DNA from: Deltaproteobacteria bacterium GWC2_55_46 | GTDB lineage: Bacteria; Desulfobacterota; GWC2-55-46 | DNA: 64,000 nt | NCBI GenBank assembly: GCA_001595385.3 | Contig: LVEI03000001.1 | Coordinates: 744,001 to 808,000 of the forward strand | Direction of reading: 5' to 3' | Part shown: positions 54,644 to 63,041 of the stretch, piece by piece | Layout of the letters: each line of letters begins with the position of its first letter | How positions within the stretch are numbered: position 1 is the stretch's first letter | Position numbers and translations under genes: made by a program | Notes under the pieces: generated by a model | Told to the model about the DNA's origin: nothing | Databases searched by the model: none | The model's input: only the letters and a program-made list of their open reading frames with translations

Positions 54644-55980
54644 AAAAAACAACAACCGCACTCTTATTTTTGGCTATCGGGCTCATGGCCGGCTCTGCCG
54701 CCGTGTGGTTCCTTACGCATGGCGATAAGGAACCGTCGGCAGCGGTAGCCAGGCAGAAAGGCGAGCGCGGGATAATCTACTACAGGAACCCGATGGACCC
54801 GGGCGTGACATCGCCTGTGCCCATGAAAGACCCGATGGGCATGGACTACATACCAGTCTACAAAGACGAGGCGGCTGCCGAAGCCATGAAGCCCGGCACG
54901 GTGCGTATAACACCGGAGCGCATTCAGAAGATAGGCGTCAAATCAGAGCCCGTTGAGAGAAGGCCATTAAACCACGTCATACGCACGGTCGGCAGGGTAG
55001 AGCCAATTGAAGAGAAGGTCCATATCATAACGGCCAAGGTACCGGGCTGGATAGAAAAGCTCTACGTCAACAGGACCGACGCGATGGTCGGCAAGGGAGC
55101 GATGCTCCTCGAGATATACAGCCCGGAGCTCGTCTCAGCCCAGCTGGAGTACCTGATCGCGCTCGAGGGCCTCAAGAAGGTGAAGGATAGCCCGTATAAA
55201 GACGCGCGCGAAGGGGCCGAGACGCTGCTGCGGGCCGCAAGGCAGAGGCTCAGGTACTGGGACATAACGGAAGACCAGATAAACGCACTTGAGGCGCGGG
55301 GCACTGCCGCGAGGACAATGGCCATAAGGTCCCCGGCCGGCGGGTCGGTTACCGAGAAGATGGTGGTCGAAGGGCAGAAGATCGAGGCCGGGGAGCCGCT
55401 CTTCAAGATCATAGACCATTCCAGCGTCTGGGTATACGGCGAGATATACGAGTACGAGATGCCTTACATAAAGATGGGGCAGTCGGCTCTCCTTACCTCG
55501 GCCTATTCACCCACAGACAGGTATACGGGGAAGATAGAGCACATATACACCCACCTCGGCTCCATAAGGTACACCCCTGAGGAAGGCACAGAGGTGAGGA
55601 CCGCCAAGGTGAGGTTCGCCCTCCCCAACAGGGAGCACAGGCTCAAGTTCGGGATGTACCTCAATATCGAGATATCGGTGCCCATAGCCAGGCGGCCGCT
55701 CTCTGTGCCTGAATCCGCCGTCATAGACACGGGTGTCAGGCAGCTTGTGATAGTGGACAGGCGCGACGGCACCTTTGAGCCCAGGGAGGTGAAGCTCGGG
55801 GCCATGGGCGATGGTATGCGCGAGGTGCAAAAGGGCGTTGCTGAAGGAGAATGGGTCGTGACCTCGGCCAACTTCCTCGTGGACTCCGAAAGCAACCTCA
55901 AGGCCGCGGTAAGCTCCATGGGCCACGCGAAAGGCGAAGAGGCGGCCGGACAAGCGCCTGCCCAGGGGCAGAAGCGCTGA
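54640..55980 (+). CDS. cusB: RND efflux periplasmic adaptor, CusB-like
   Basis: Membrane-fusion protein linking pump and channel. The 446-residue protein has an N-terminal membrane anchor (about 6-23). A heavy-metal-binding segment follows (about 47-70, YRNPMDPGVTSPVPMKDPMGMDYIPVY; Met-rich). Next come a lipoyl/hairpin region (HIITAKVPGWIEKLYVN; coiled hairpin 160-205) and beta-barrel domains. The Met-containing segment is characteristic of CusB/SilB-type adaptors. Start overlaps the tolC stop as ATGA; its stop overlaps the CusA start as TGATG. Substrate preference for Cu/Ag is inferred. Confidence 0.92.
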   Translation: MKKTTTALLFLAIGLMAGSAAVWFLTHGDKEPSAAVARQKGERGIIYYRNPMDPGVTSPVPMKDPMGMDYIPVYKDEAAAEAMKPGTVRITPERIQKIGVKSEPVERRPLNHVIRTVGRVEPIEEKVHIITAKVPGWIEKLYVNRTDAMVGKGAMLLEIYSPELVSAQLEYLIALEGLKKVKDSPYKDAREGAETLLRAARQRLRYWDITEDQINALEARGTAARTMAIRSPAGGSVTEKMVVEGQKIEAGEPLFKIIDHSSVWVYGEIYEYEMPYIKMGQSALLTSAYSPTDRYTGKIEHIYTHLGSIRYTPEEGTEVRTAKVRFALPNREHRLKFGMYLNIEISVPIARRPLSVPESAVIDTGVRQLVIVDRRDGTFEPREVKLGAMGDGMREVQKGVAEGEWVVTSANFLVDSESNLKAAVSSMGHAKGEEAAGQAPAQGQKR

Positions 55981-58900
55981 TGCTCAAGAAGATAATCGAG
56001 ATATCGGTAAAGCACAGGCTCCTTGTACTCCTTTTCACCGTCTTCATCACAGGCTGGGGCATATGGACCATATACAAGACCCCGATAGACGCCATACCCG
56101 ACCTCTCTGACGTACAGGTCATAATCTTTACCGAATACCCGGGGCAGGCCCCGCAGGTCGTAGAAGACCAGGTCACCTATCCTCTCACGACGGCGATGCT
56201 TGCCGTGCCGAAGGCGAAGGTGGTAAGGGGCTACTCCTTCTTCGGGGTCTCCTTTGTCTATATAATCTTCGAGGACGGAACCGACATCTACTGGGCCCGC
56301 AGCAGGGTCCTCGAGTACCTGAACTTCGCCGCCAACAAGCTCCCCTCAGGCGTCTCCCCTTCTCTCGGCCCTGACGCCACAGGCGTAGGCTGGGTCTACG
56401 AGTACGCCCTTGAGGGCAAGGGATACAGCCTCGCGGAGCTCCGCTCCATACAGGACTGGTTCGTAAGGTACCAGCTCACCTCAGTGCCAGGGGTATCTGA
56501 AGTCGCCTCCATCGGCGGCTTCGTAAAACAGTATCAGGTCAACATAGACCCCAACAGGCTCGTAACCCACGACGTCACCATAGACGACGTGGTAAAGGCC
56601 CTCCGGATGGGCAACCGCGACACCGGAGGCCGGGTCCTTGAGATGGCCGAACGGGAGTACATGGTCCGCGGCCTCGGCTACATAAAGAGCATCCCCGACA
56701 TAGAGAATATCGTCTTGAAGGTAGACCGCACCGGCACGCCCGTAAGGATACGGGACGTGGCGAGGGTAGAGATCGGCCCGGATGAAAGAAGGGGCCTTGC
56801 GGAGCTTGACGGCGAGGGTGAGGCCGTGGGCGGCATAGTCGTCATGCGCTTCGGCGAGAACGCCCTCACCGTCATAAACGGGGTCAAGGCAAAGCTCGAT
56901 GAGATAAAGGCCGGCCTACCCCCAGGCGTGAGCGTCAGGCCCGTCTACGACAGGAGCGAGCTTATCTACAGGGCCATAGAGACCTTGAAGGAGAAGCTCA
57001 TAGAGGAGTCTATCCTCGTCTCGATAGTCTGCATAATATTCCTCCTCCACTTCAGGTCATCTCTCGTCGCCATAATAATGCTGCCCATAGGCATACTCGT
57101 CTCGTTCATCGTCATGTACTCGATGGGCATCAACGCCAACATCATGAGCCTCGGCGGCATAGCCATAGCCATCGGCGCCATGATAGACGGCGCCATCATA
57201 ATGGTCGAGAACTGCCATAAGCACCTCGAGCGCGAAAGCGGCAACGGAAGCAACAAGCCCCATTGGGATATCGTCACGCAGGCCGCGAAGGAGGTTGGCC
57301 CCGCCCTTTTCTTCTCGCTCCTCATCATAACCGTCTCCTTCATGCCCATATTCACGCTGGAGGCGCAGGAAGGCAGGCTCTTCAAGCCCCTTGCCTACAC
57401 AAAGACCTTTGCCATGGCCGCCGCCGCCATACTCTCCATCACCCTGGTGCCGGTCCTCATGGGGATATTCATAAGGGGCAAGATCCGCCCCGAGGAGCAC
57501 AACCCCATTACAAGGTCGCTCATCTGGGTCTACAGGCCGGCCATAGAAAAGGTCTTGAAGTACAGGAAGGCGACGATATTCGCCGCCATAGGGGCCCTCG
57601 CCTTAACGGCCTTTCCAATCGCCAGGATCGGAAGCGAGTTCATGCCCGCTCTCAACGAGGGGACGCTCCTTTACATGCCCGTTACGCTCCCCGGCGTCTC
57701 GGTAACAAAGGCCGCCGAGATACTCCAGACGCAGGACAAGATAATCAAGAGCTTCCCTGAGGTCGAAAGCGTCTTCGGCAAGGCCGGGAGGGCGCTTACA
57801 GCCACGGACCCGGCGCCCTTCGAGATGTTCGAGACGGTAATAAACCTGAAGCCCATGGACGAGTGGCGCCCCGGCATGACAACCGACAAGCTCATCGAGG
57901 AGATGGACTCCGCCCTCGACCTCCCCGGCATAACGAACGCGTGGACGATGCCGATAAAGGCCAGGATAGACATGCTCTCGACAGGTATCAGGACCCCGGT
58001 GGGCATAAAGGTCTTCGGCAAGGACTTGAACGAACTTGAGAAGGTCGCCCTCGACGTGGAGTCGGCTGTCAAGAAGGTGCCGGGGACCTCGAGCGCCTAC
58101 GCCGAGAGGATAGTCGGCGGCTACTACCTCGACATAGACATAAAAAGAGAGGAGGCCGCGAGGTACGGCCTCAGGATAGAGGACATACAGGACGTGGTGA
58201 TGTCAGCCATAGGCGGCGAGAACGTGACCACGACCGTCGAGGGGCTTGAGCGCTACCCGGTGAACGTAAGGTACAAAAGGGAATTGAGGGACAACGTCGA
58301 CAAGCTCGGCAGGGTGCTTGTGCCGACCATGTCAGGCGACCACATACCGCTCTACCAGGTGGCTGACCTGAAGATCAAGATGGGCCCGCCCGGCATAAGG
58401 ACAGAGGACGCCCTTCTTACGACCTGGATATTCGTCGACGTAAGGGGCAGGGACATCGGCGGGTATGTAAAAGAGGCAAAGGCCGCGGTCGCGGATAACG
58501 TAAAATTCCCGCCGGGCTATTACGTCAGCTGGAGCGGACAGTACGAGTACATGCAGAGGGCGTATTCCAAGCTCAAGGTCATCATACCGCTTACGCTCCT
58601 CATCATATTCCTGCTCCTGTACTTCAACTTCAAGAGCTTGACGGAGTGCCTCATAATACTGCTTGCCATACCGTTCTCGCTCATCGGCGCGGCGTGGCTG
58701 ATCTATCTCCTCGGGTATAACCTCTCGATAGGCGTGGCGGTGGGGTTCATAGCCCTGGCCGGACTTGACGCGGAGATGGGCATAGTCATGCTCATCTACC
58801 TGAACCAGGCCTACAACCAGAGGAAGGAGGCCGGCAGGATGAACAACTGGGCTGACCTGCACGAGGCCATAATCGACGGAACTGTCTTGAGGGTGCGCCC

Positions 58901-59090
58901 AAAGCTCATGACCGTGACCGCGATAATCGCGGGACTTCTTCCCATCATGTGGAGCACCGGCACAGGGGCCGACGTCATGAAGAAGATAGCCGCCCCGATG
59001 GTCGGCGGCATGTTCACATCGGGCCTCCTCGAGCTCCTTGTCCTCCCTGCCATCTACGCCGTATGGAAAGGAAGGAATCTCCCCCGGTAG
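55980..59090 (+). CDS. cusA: heavy-metal RND efflux pump, CusA-like
   Basis: Inner-membrane proton-driven pump of 1036 residues with 12 transmembrane helices in two repeats. Visible are IDAIPDLSDVQVIIFTEYPGQAPQVVEDQVTYPL at the start, the proton-relay Asp in GAMIDGAIIMVEN, ATDPAPFEMFET and RIDMLSTGI in the periplasmic part. The last two carry methionines at the positions used by E. coli CusA; CzcA, the Zn/Co/Cd type, lacks them. Thus Cu(I)/Ag(I) is the likely substrate. ATG 55980 overlaps the adaptor stop by one base; the open frame extends 43 codons upstream but lies within the adaptor gene. Confidence 0.95.
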   Translation: MLKKIIEISVKHRLLVLLFTVFITGWGIWTIYKTPIDAIPDLSDVQVIIFTEYPGQAPQVVEDQVTYPLTTAMLAVPKAKVVRGYSFFGVSFVYIIFEDGTDIYWARSRVLEYLNFAANKLPSGVSPSLGPDATGVGWVYEYALEGKGYSLAELRSIQDWFVRYQLTSVPGVSEVASIGGFVKQYQVNIDPNRLVTHDVTIDDVVKALRMGNRDTGGRVLEMAEREYMVRGLGYIKSIPDIENIVLKVDRTGTPVRIRDVARVEIGPDERRGLAELDGEGEAVGGIVVMRFGENALTVINGVKAKLDEIKAGLPPGVSVRPVYDRSELIYRAIETLKEKLIEESILVSIVCIIFLLHFRSSLVAIIMLPIGILVSFIVMYSMGINANIMSLGGIAIAIGAMIDGAIIMVENCHKHLERESGNGSNKPHWDIVTQAAKEVGPALFFSLLIITVSFMPIFTLEAQEGRLFKPLAYTKTFAMAAAAILSITLVPVLMGIFIRGKIRPEEHNPITRSLIWVYRPAIEKVLKYRKATIFAAIGALALTAFPIARIGSEFMPALNEGTLLYMPVTLPGVSVTKAAEILQTQDKIIKSFPEVESVFGKAGRALTATDPAPFEMFETVINLKPMDEWRPGMTTDKLIEEMDSALDLPGITNAWTMPIKARIDMLSTGIRTPVGIKVFGKDLNELEKVALDVESAVKKVPGTSSAYAERIVGGYYLDIDIKREEAARYGLRIEDIQDVVMSAIGGENVTTTVEGLERYPVNVRYKRELRDNVDKLGRVLVPTMSGDHIPLYQVADLKIKMGPPGIRTEDALLTTWIFVDVRGRDIGGYVKEAKAAVADNVKFPPGYYVSWSGQYEYMQRAYSKLKVIIPLTLLIIFLLLYFNFKSLTECLIILLAIPFSLIGAAWLIYLLGYNLSIGVAVGFIALAGLDAEMGIVMLIYLNQAYNQRKEAGRMNNWADLHEAIIDGTVLRVRPKLMTVTAIIAGLLPIMWSTGTGADVMKKIAAPMVGGMFTSGLLELLVLPAIYAVWKGRNLPR

Positions 59091-59166: not shown

Positions 59167-59190
59167 ACATACCCTACGGAGGTCATGAGC

Positions 59191-59502
59191 ATGAAAAGAG
59201 CGTGGCCGGTCGTTGTCCTGCTACTGTTTACCTTCGCCGGTCCATTGACATCGCCGGGTACTTCTCTGGCTCAGTTCCCTGACCAGAGGTTTCCGTCCGG
59301 GGACCCGTTCCTTAATATGGAAAGCCAGCAGTTGACCCAGGAGACGCTTATGGCATTAAGGGAGCTCGTAAACGTGATGAAGGAGCTTCAGTCGACTCCG
59401 CAGCCACAAAAGGAACGGCTTCAAGCGCTCTCCGAGAGGCTCGATTTCCTCATAATGCGCCAGCAGGACCTCGCCATGCGCCAGAGGATGAGCAGGCCCT
59501 GA
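59191..59502 (+). CDS. small exported helical protein
   Basis: A 103-residue protein with a signal peptide (about 1-29, ending SLA) and a short mature domain of amphipathic helices (ESQQLTQETLMALRELVNVMKELQ ... RLDFLIMRQQDLAMRQRM), rich in Gln, Leu, Met and Arg. No family is recognised. ATG 59191 lies 8 bases after GGAGG; an ATG two codons earlier (59185) is too close. It is 100 bp after cusA, so it may belong to the metal island. The six Met in the mature part could bind metal, but this is weak evidence. Confidence 0.65.
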   Translation: MKRAWPVVVLLLFTFAGPLTSPGTSLAQFPDQRFPSGDPFLNMESQQLTQETLMALRELVNVMKELQSTPQPQKERLQALSERLDFLIMRQQDLAMRQRMSRP

Positions 59503-60018: not shown

Positions 60019-60978
60019 ATGATATCACTCGACCAGACCCTTCTTTTCCAGGTAATCGGCTTTTTCATCCTCCTCGTTATCTTGAACCAGTTTCTTTACA
60101 AACCTGTTCAGAGGGTCCTCAGGGAGCGGGACGAGCGCATAGACGGCAATCTGAAGAAGGCCTCCCTTACTAAAGAAGAGCTTGCCGAAGGCCTTTTGAA
60201 CTATGACAGGAAGCTCAAGGAAGCTGCTGTAAAGGGGCACGAAGAACGCGCCAGGATGAGAAAAGAGACCCAGGAAAAGGAAAAGGCCATAATCGAAGCG
60301 GCCAGGGTAGATGCCGCCAAAGGGCTTTCATCCATAAGGACCGAGCTTTCGGCAAGCAAAGGAAGCGCCCTTGCGGGCCTTAAGGCGGAAGCGAGCGTGC
60401 TTGCCAGGGAAATAGCCGGCAAGGTTCTCGACAGGAACATAGCCGGCCTGCTCGTCCTTGCTATCCTTCTCCCCTCCATCGCGTTCGCCTCGGAGAGCGA
60501 GCACGGCGGGAACGGCTCGACATGGAAGCTCATTAACTTCGCGATACTCGCCATAGGAGTATACTTCGTCTGGACAAAGGTCATAAAGGGTCTGCTTGAC
60601 AAGAGGGGCACCGATATAAAAAAGGCCATCGAAGAGGCTCAAATGGCCAGGGACGAGGCCGAGAAGAAGGCTGCCGAGTACAGGGAAAAGCTCTCGCTCC
60701 TCGATAAAAGGGTCGCCGGGATACTGAGCGAGCTCCGGGCAGAGGGTGAATCCGAAAAAGAAAGAATGATACTTGACGCCGGCAAAGCCGCCGAGAGGCT
60801 CAAGGAGCAGGCGAAGGTGGCCGCCGAGCAGGAGATAAGGAAAGCGAAGCTCGAGATAAGGGAAGAGGCCGCAAAGCTCTCTGTAGAGCTTGCGGAGCAG
60901 ATATTGAAAAAGGAGCTCAATCCTGCTGACCAGGAGAGGCTTGTAAAAGGATACCTAAACAATCTGAGGCTTAACTGA
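60019..60978 (+). CDS. F-type ATP synthase b'-b fusion subunit
   Basis: A 319-residue stator protein that joins two normally separate subunits. Residues 1-140 match a b' subunit: TM helix about 8-27 (FQVIGFFILLVILNQFLY), then a charged coiled coil ending EIAGKVLDRN. Without a stop, residues 141-157 continue as a signal-like hydrophobic stretch (AGLLVLAILLPSIAFA). A second TM helix follows (169-188), then the b-type coiled coil to the end. In related bacteria b' and b are separate genes of about 140 and 205 codons. The topology works: cytoplasmic coil, out, short loop, back in. The junction is at DNA 60436-60442. It could be a true fusion, a natural deletion or an assembly error. Overlaps delta by one base (TGATG). 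Confidence 0.85.
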   Translation: MISLDQTLLFQVIGFFILLVILNQFLYKPVQRVLRERDERIDGNLKKASLTKEELAEGLLNYDRKLKEAAVKGHEERARMRKETQEKEKAIIEAARVDAAKGLSSIRTELSASKGSALAGLKAEASVLAREIAGKVLDRNIAGLLVLAILLPSIAFASESEHGGNGSTWKLINFAILAIGVYFVWTKVIKGLLDKRGTDIKKAIEEAQMARDEAEKKAAEYREKLSLLDKRVAGILSELRAEGESEKERMILDAGKAAERLKEQAKVAAEQEIRKAKLEIREEAAKLSVELAEQILKKELNPADQERLVKGYLNNLRLN

Positions 60979-61523
60979 TGAAGAGTTCCGCATCCAAGAG
61001 GTTCGCGAAGGCCCTTATAGAGGTCGGCAAGGAAGAAGGGGCATGGGACAGGTACGGCAAGGAGCTCAGGACCGTTATTGCCGTATTCAGGGGAAACCCG
61101 GAGCTTGAAAAGGCCCTCCTGAACCCCATGTACAAGCTCGAAGAGAGAAAGGCCCTGATGGACAGCGTTGCCGCCTCTACGGGACTTTCGGCCCACGTCG
61201 CGAAGTTCCTCGACATACTCGTCGAGACCAGGAATATCCGTTTCATAGAAGATATAGCCGAGGCATACTCAAGGTTCGAGGACGCCATCGCGGGCAGGAT
61301 AAGGGCCACGGTCGAATCGCCTGCCGAGCTTTCCCAGGCCCTCGCGGAAGAGATAAGGACGAAGCTCAGCGCCACAACGGGCAAAGAGGTCATACTCACC
61401 TGCAAATACAACCCTGAGCTACTCGGCGGGCTTGTCCTCAGGATAGACAACACCATCCTTGACGGCAGCCTCAAGACCCAGCTTGAACTCATGAAAGAAA
61501 AAATACTCGAAGGGGTGGTTTAG
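60978..61523 (+). CDS. atpH: F-type ATP synthase subunit delta
   Basis: Stator subunit delta (OSCP-like) that joins b/b' to the alpha3beta3 head. The 181-residue protein begins SASKRFAKALIEVGKEEG, has LNPMYKLEERKALMDSV near 50 and the C-terminal GKEVILTCKYNPELLGGLVLRIDNTILDGSLKTQLE, the family signature. Length is normal (about 180). Start ATG overlaps the b'-b stop by one base and alpha follows 3 bp later. Confidence 0.95.
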   Translation: MKSSASKRFAKALIEVGKEEGAWDRYGKELRTVIAVFRGNPELEKALLNPMYKLEERKALMDSVAASTGLSAHVAKFLDILVETRNIRFIEDIAEAYSRFEDAIAGRIRATVESPAELSQALAEEIRTKLSATTGKEVILTCKYNPELLGGLVLRIDNTILDGSLKTQLELMKEKILEGVV

Positions 61524-61526
61524 ACG

Positions 61527-63041
61527 ATGATCAAGGTAGAGGAGATAAGCCAGCTCATTAAGACCCGGATAAAGGGTTTTGAGAAGGAAATAGACGTACA
61601 GGAAGTCGGCACCGTAATATCGGTGGGCGACGGGATCGCCAGGATATACGGCCTTGAGAAGGCCATGGCCGGAGAGCTCCTCGAATTCCCCGGCGGCCTC
61701 TACGGCATGGTCCTCAACCTCGAAGAGGACAACGTCGGCGCCGCCATATTCGGAAGCGACCAGACGATAAAAGAGGGCTCCCCGGTAAAGAGGACCGGCA
61801 GGATAGTCGAAGTGCCTGTAGGCAAGGGGCTCATGGGCAGGGTCATTAACGCCCTGGGCCAGCCCATAGACGACAAGGGGCCGATCGAGGCCGCCGAGTA
61901 CAAGAGGGTCGAGCTCAAGGCCCCCGGCATAGTCGCGAGGAAGTCTGTCAAGGAACCTCTCCAGACCGGCATCAAGGCCATAGACGCCATGATACCCATC
62001 GGAAGGGGCCAGAGGGAGCTCATCATAGGCGACCGTCAGACAGGAAAGACCACCGTCGCCATCGACACCATCATAAACCAGAAGGGGCAGAACGTATTCT
62101 GCATATATGTCGCGATAGGGCAGAAGCAGTCCACCGTCGCGCAGATAGTCGAGAAGCTCAAGCAGTTCGGAGCCATGGAATATACGGTCGTGGTAGCCGC
62201 CACCGCCAGCTCCCCTGCCCCGCTTCAGTTCATATCCCCGTACACGGGCTGCGCCATAGGCGAGTACTTCAGGGACAACGGCATGCACGCCCTGATAATA
62301 TACGACGACCTCTCGAAGCACGCGGTCGCCTACAGGCAGCTCTCTTTGCTCCTGCGCAGGCCTCCGGGCAGAGAAGCCTACCCCGGCGACGTATTCTATC
62401 TCCACTCAAGGCTCCTTGAGAGGGCCGCGAAGCTCTCGGATAAGCTCGGCGGCGGCTCGCTTACGGCACTGCCGGTCATCGAAACGCAGGCAGGCGACGT
62501 CTCGGCCTATATCCCGACCAACGTCATATCGATCACCGACGGGCAGATATTCCTCGAGACCGACCTCTTCTACTCAGGCATAAGGCCGGCCATCAACGTC
62601 GGCCTCTCGGTCTCCAGGGTCGGCGGCAGCGCCCAGATAAAGGCGATGAAGTCGGTTGCCGGCACCCTGAGGCTCGAGCTCGCGCAGTACAGGGAACTCG
62701 CGGCCTTCGCGCAGTTCGGCAGCGACCTCGACGCCGCCACACAGAAGCAGCTCAACAGGGGATCCAAGCTCGTCGAGATATTGAAGCAGGGGCAGTACAA
62801 GCCCCTTCCGATTGAAAAGCAGGTACTGATAATCTACGCCGCCACAAACGGCTACGTAGACGCCTATCCCAACTCGGCCCTCAAAAGGTACGAGGAAGAG
62901 CTCATATCCTTTATCGAGAGCAGGCACGCGGACATCATAGAGGATATCCGCACCAAGAAGAACATAGATAACGAAGTAAAGGCGAAGCTCAACAAGGCGC
63001 TCGACGACCTGAAGGGCCTTTTTGTGGCAGTGGGCAAGTAA
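61527..63041 (+). CDS. atpA: F-type ATP synthase subunit alpha
   Basis: Non-catalytic nucleotide-binding head subunit. The 504-residue protein has the usual [20 protein letters not shown] start, [15 protein letters not shown] (Walker A near 170), [52 protein letters not shown] and the C-terminal helical bundle. Length matches the family (about 503). Read on the minus strand this gene shows a long antisense frame, which is a shadow. It sits in the delta-alpha-gamma order common to F-type operons; beta and epsilon are expected just beyond the window. Confidence 0.98.

Follow-up and report, generated by a model that had tools for sequence, protein, structure and literature searches.

One open frame for both stalk subunits

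The ATP-synthase stalk subunits b′ and b normally come from separate genes, and a locus that carries both in one frame raises the question of whether its product is a permanently fused stator arm, as the original prediction proposed, or a chain that still delivers two subunits. In the window, by which we mean the whole 64,000-nt stretch of DNA analysed, a single open frame at positions 60,019–60,978 starts with ATG and runs for 319 codons to a TGA stop; this gene, its parts, atpH and atpA all lie on the plus strand. An in-frame TAA stands two codons 5′ of the ATG, so that no earlier start is possible. The ATP-synt_B family (PF00430, curated cut-off 28 bits) matched the 319-aa translation twice, with 67.8 and 69.5 bits, bearing out the prediction of an in-frame b′-b fusion with no stop between the halves. 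These two were the only PF00430 matches in a profile search of the whole 2.79-Mb genome, which revealed no other b or b′ gene; the fused gene must therefore supply both stalk subunits.

The fused gene sits in the normal b/b′ operon position. It precedes atpH (delta/OSCP; 60,978–61,523; PF00213, 143 bits), whose ATG shares one base with its 3′ end, and atpA (alpha; 61,527–63,041; PF00006, PF00306 and PF02874). A gamma-like frame, read by eye, follows delta and alpha, and the gene for the F0 a subunit is located elsewhere on the same contig. Both traits by which we assigned the gene to the F-ATPase b/b′ family, an above-cut-off PF00430 match and a place before atpH-atpA, were present; in contrast, the one b-type domain per gene characteristic of this family is replaced, order-wide, by two in one frame. 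Directly 5′ of the region, inspection by eye found a gene for a CusA/CzcA-like heavy-metal RND efflux pump (55,851–59,090), followed by a small secreted-protein-like frame (59,188–59,502).

The fusion is a fixed trait of the order

We searched 48 genomes of the order of the source genome for b and b′. The in-frame fusion was found in all 42 genomes with an identifiable b/b′ locus, representing 24 genera and 7 families, and the joint was free of stops in each of the 43 fused genes, one more than the number of genomes because the genome G034 carries the fused gene twice. Its copies (L045, L046) have diverged and lie on different contigs. In one of the 43 genes (L049), the contig ends short of the gene's own start. 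A PF00430 match was absent in the other six order genomes (G012, G020, G027, G043, G044 and G046), which, lacking any such match, are no exceptions to the fusion. Some of them are rated 90–100% complete. Assembly gaps or loss most likely account for these six genomes; some members of family f4 may lack the F-ATPase, or its genes may fall within assembly gaps.

Outside the order, two separate genes were present in all ten class-mates with a readable locus (L050, L052 and L054–L061), in agreement with the expectation that two genes are the rule in related bacteria. In the IQ-TREE tree of b′ plus b (53 rows), one branch with 100/100 support parts the fused from the split sequences, and the tree requires a single change between the two states. 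The comparison with relatives suggested in the original prediction thus found the same fusion, stop-free at the joint, in 43 of 43 order homologues, which places the stop-free joint well beyond chance; the b′-b fusion is a fixed trait of the whole order, not a local mutation. The proposed small deletion at the joint stands in so far as the b′ stop, the b start and the b n-region have been lost; it fails as a local event, the loss being order-wide and traced to one change in the tree. An origin of the joint in sequencing, assembly or strain-level mutation has a negligible probability, since the same stop-free joint recurs in all 43 genes, which come from 42 separate assemblies, one of them a genome in a single contig (G002), and assembly error is excluded in practice.

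In a sample of 395 genomes from the phylum, every row holding both halves, among the matches listed outside the order, has a stop; a distant fusion elsewhere in the phylum could be missed. A second, independent fusion had been suspected in family f22 (G071, G108 and G143) from long "open frames", and was rejected when the DNA showed two same-frame genes with one stop between them. Similarly, both halves lie in one frame in G055 (family f8), with a TAA directly before the b ATG.

A retained signal peptide at the joint

The b′ half (residues 1–141; 60,019–60,441) comprises an N-terminal membrane helix and a full coiled coil ending in KVLDRNI, which, by comparison with the ends of split b′ proteins, is where those proteins stop. 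The internal signal sequence (residues 139–157; 60,433–60,489) consists of Arg139 as the n-region, a hydrophobic stretch at 141–151, Pro152 at position −6 and A155-F-A157 at −3 to −1. A signal peptidase I cut is predicted between Ala157 and Ser158 (IAFA↓SE; 60,487–60,492) from the conservation of the −1 residue and from the same site in the ten split relatives. The b half (residues 158–319; 60,490–60,975) opens with a short Gly/His/Glu-rich, putatively periplasmic stretch and continues with a membrane helix at about 169–192 and a coiled coil, the PF00430 match covering residues 169–296.

The separate atpF′ and atpF genes of the ten class-mates encode the same subunits in the same order, and the end of b′ and the beginning of b coincide with those in the fusion. 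Their b′ ends in ...AEKILERKVA-stop, and the signal peptide that opens their b closes with [A/V]xA (AFSA in one). A Gly/His/Glu-rich stretch follows at once, then the b membrane helix, whose spacing from [A/V]xA equals that in the fused genes. Unlike the fusion, the class-mates have a stop and a start between the genes and a b with its own n-region of 10–30 residues. The fused genes read ...AEKILERK-[V/L]-hydrophobic-PxxAxA↓[S/A]...: b′ is complete to within 1–2 residues, no linker precedes the signal sequence, and b retains its signal peptide minus the Met and n-region, the basic charge coming from the end of b′. In five of the class-mates (L055, L056, L059, L060 and L061) the b signal peptide begins with an n-region that resembles a translated dispersed repeat (MKFQISNLKFQI..., MKNQKLEIRNQKL...), giving the impression that a short repeat from the intergenic DNA had become part of the 5′ end of the b gene.

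Lys or Arg occurs just before the hydrophobic segment in all 43 fused genes, charged residues are absent from the hydrophobic stretch in all 43, Pro occupies −6 in 38, and position −1 holds Ala in 41 genes and Gly in the other 2, the sequences being related by kinship and these counts consequently not independent. Variability in the signal segment far exceeds that of the full protein (median column entropy 2.21 versus 1.51), and within the segment the −1 residue and Arg139 each rank 25th, and Pro −6 49th, in conservation among the 319 columns. A variable segment with conserved cleavage-site residues is the way in which cleaved signal peptides evolve. The pN/pS ratio of the segment, 0.35–0.39, is above that of the coils and below one. 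Counts and conservation together delineate an internal n-region, h-region and c-region, and positions −3 and −1 carry small residues, as expected of a polyprotein processed by signal peptidase. The signal-like hydrophobic segment noticed between the halves therefore finds an identity: judged from sequence comparison, it is probably the inherited, cleavable signal peptide of b rather than an arbitrary extra helix.

A precursor probably cut into b′ and b

Taken together, the architecture of the joint suggests, with a probability of roughly two in three, that the fused gene encodes a b′-b precursor acting as a small polyprotein that is cut after membrane entry. One translated chain would carry the b′ membrane helix with its full cytoplasmic coil, then the internal Sec signal sequence, then b. 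The signal sequence, with the end of b′ as its n-region, would cross from the cytoplasm to the periplasm, and the b helix would cross back. Signal peptidase I would then cleave after AxA on the periplasmic side, at the predicted IAFA↓SE site, leaving b N-out and C-in, just as two-gene relatives have it. In a later step, possibly carried out by an RseP-type site-2 protease, b′ would lose its hydrophobic remnant and so be able to reach the top of F1, and the outcome would be a normal b′b stalk with a 1:1 ratio. We infer all of translocation, cleavage, tail removal and the fixed ratio, and the removal of the tail from b′ is the least supported step.

Both b and b′ have an N-out, C-in topology. 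For the b subunit of Bacillus PS3, the N terminus was placed in the periplasm (PMC6377231). For the b helix to be N-out in the fused chain, one more membrane crossing is needed between the halves, and the retained signal sequence gives it. In E. coli, RseP clears remnant signal peptides after leader peptidase cleavage (PMC8144685). The remnant on b′ would be oriented like such a remnant signal peptide. The source genome encodes signal peptidase I and several M50 proteases. Nearly all bacteria encode both. The b′ product would keep its hydrophobic tail until a second, unproven step, which counts against the cleavage model. The signal-like segment could also have been kept merely for the needed third membrane crossing, cut or uncut; this need alone leaves the fixed Ala at −1 unexplained, which weighs against the objection.

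The fused stator arm of the original prediction would be an uncut protein with three membrane spans, its b′ and b coils working together in one enzyme. It agrees with the single stop-free frame kept across the order and with a middle segment that gives b the correct topology; its chain would return to the membrane, and no ATP synthase structure is known to have such a geometry. We consider it quite improbable. The end of b′ belongs atop F1 and here joins the next membrane span without a linker; judging from this architecture, the intact chain would block normal assembly. It also leaves the conserved −1 Ala and −6 Pro unexplained, and these conserved cleavage-site residues of an inherited signal peptide make a permanent fused arm less likely than a cut precursor. 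An AlphaFold2 model of the fused protein (12 sequences, mean pLDDT 71, pTM 0.44) showed, at low confidence, two long helices, one spanning residues 4–131; residues 132–188, including the b membrane helix, were unformed when the coils lay together, again with low confidence there, which would fit a poor compatibility of the intact chain with a parallel stalk. A sequence search of solved structures returned single b subunits of 156–180 residues and none spanning both halves, and structural comparison with solved structures returned generic long helices only, to which we gave no weight.

Separate synthesis of b from a start codon inside the frame, with the long chain minor or degraded, would equally account for the −1 Ala, which would then serve an ordinary signal peptide. 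A GTG or ATG occurs near residue 136 in some species, a Shine-Dalgarno-like word precedes a GTG in five, and the source gene has a GTG at residue 127, the only in-frame ATG, GTG or TTG within its residues 101–166. We nevertheless regard this route as unlikely for the order, as the frequency of start codons near the joint matches that of the gene at large (0.70 observed versus 0.67 expected), 22 of the 43 genes have none there, no start column within residues 107–166 is common to more than 10 genes, and internal initiation would make a lasting stop-free joint needless. It may operate in individual species, for example where GTG stands at residue 136. Shine-Dalgarno scoring was dropped as evidence, such words being seldom seen at the fused genes' own starts (3 of 42).

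Comparison with known systems

A cut b′-b precursor finds a parallel in FbcH of Bradyrhizobium japonicum, a cytochrome b/c1 precursor translated as a single polypeptide, within which signal peptidase cleaves at an internal signal sequence. It likewise joins two subunits of one energy-conserving complex, but the proteins are unrelated, and cleavage is experimental there, whereas for b′-b we infer it. The mycobacterial b-delta fusion (NF009961, PRK13428) also joins ATP-synthase stalk subunits, but with other partners. Its joined chain is used uncut. The fused b′-b protein matched PRK13428 with 36.4 bits against a cut-off of 328, and delta, rather than sharing a frame with b, is a separate gene here (60,978–61,523). 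The alternate F1F0 ATPase b subunit (TIGR03321) and PRK14474 (246–258 aa) are likewise long b-type proteins, but each half of the fused protein matches them singly and far below cut-off (92.5 bits versus 224.7 and 73.5 versus 339, respectively). As a gene structure, the fusion differs from every NCBIfam model of b, b′ or b-delta to which it gave a match. A report of a b′-b fusion was not found in the open literature; an earlier description may still exist.

Implications

If the cut-precursor reading is true, a whole order synthesizes b′ and b as a single chain that bears a conserved signal-peptidase site inside it, and the chain would be a housekeeping polyprotein of a kind that is rare in bacteria. 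Synthesis as one chain would be a natural way to fix b′:b at 1:1 and to pair both arms, and the loss of a stator subunit's hydrophobic tail before assembly would become testable. The fusion of two frames into one need not imply a fused protein.
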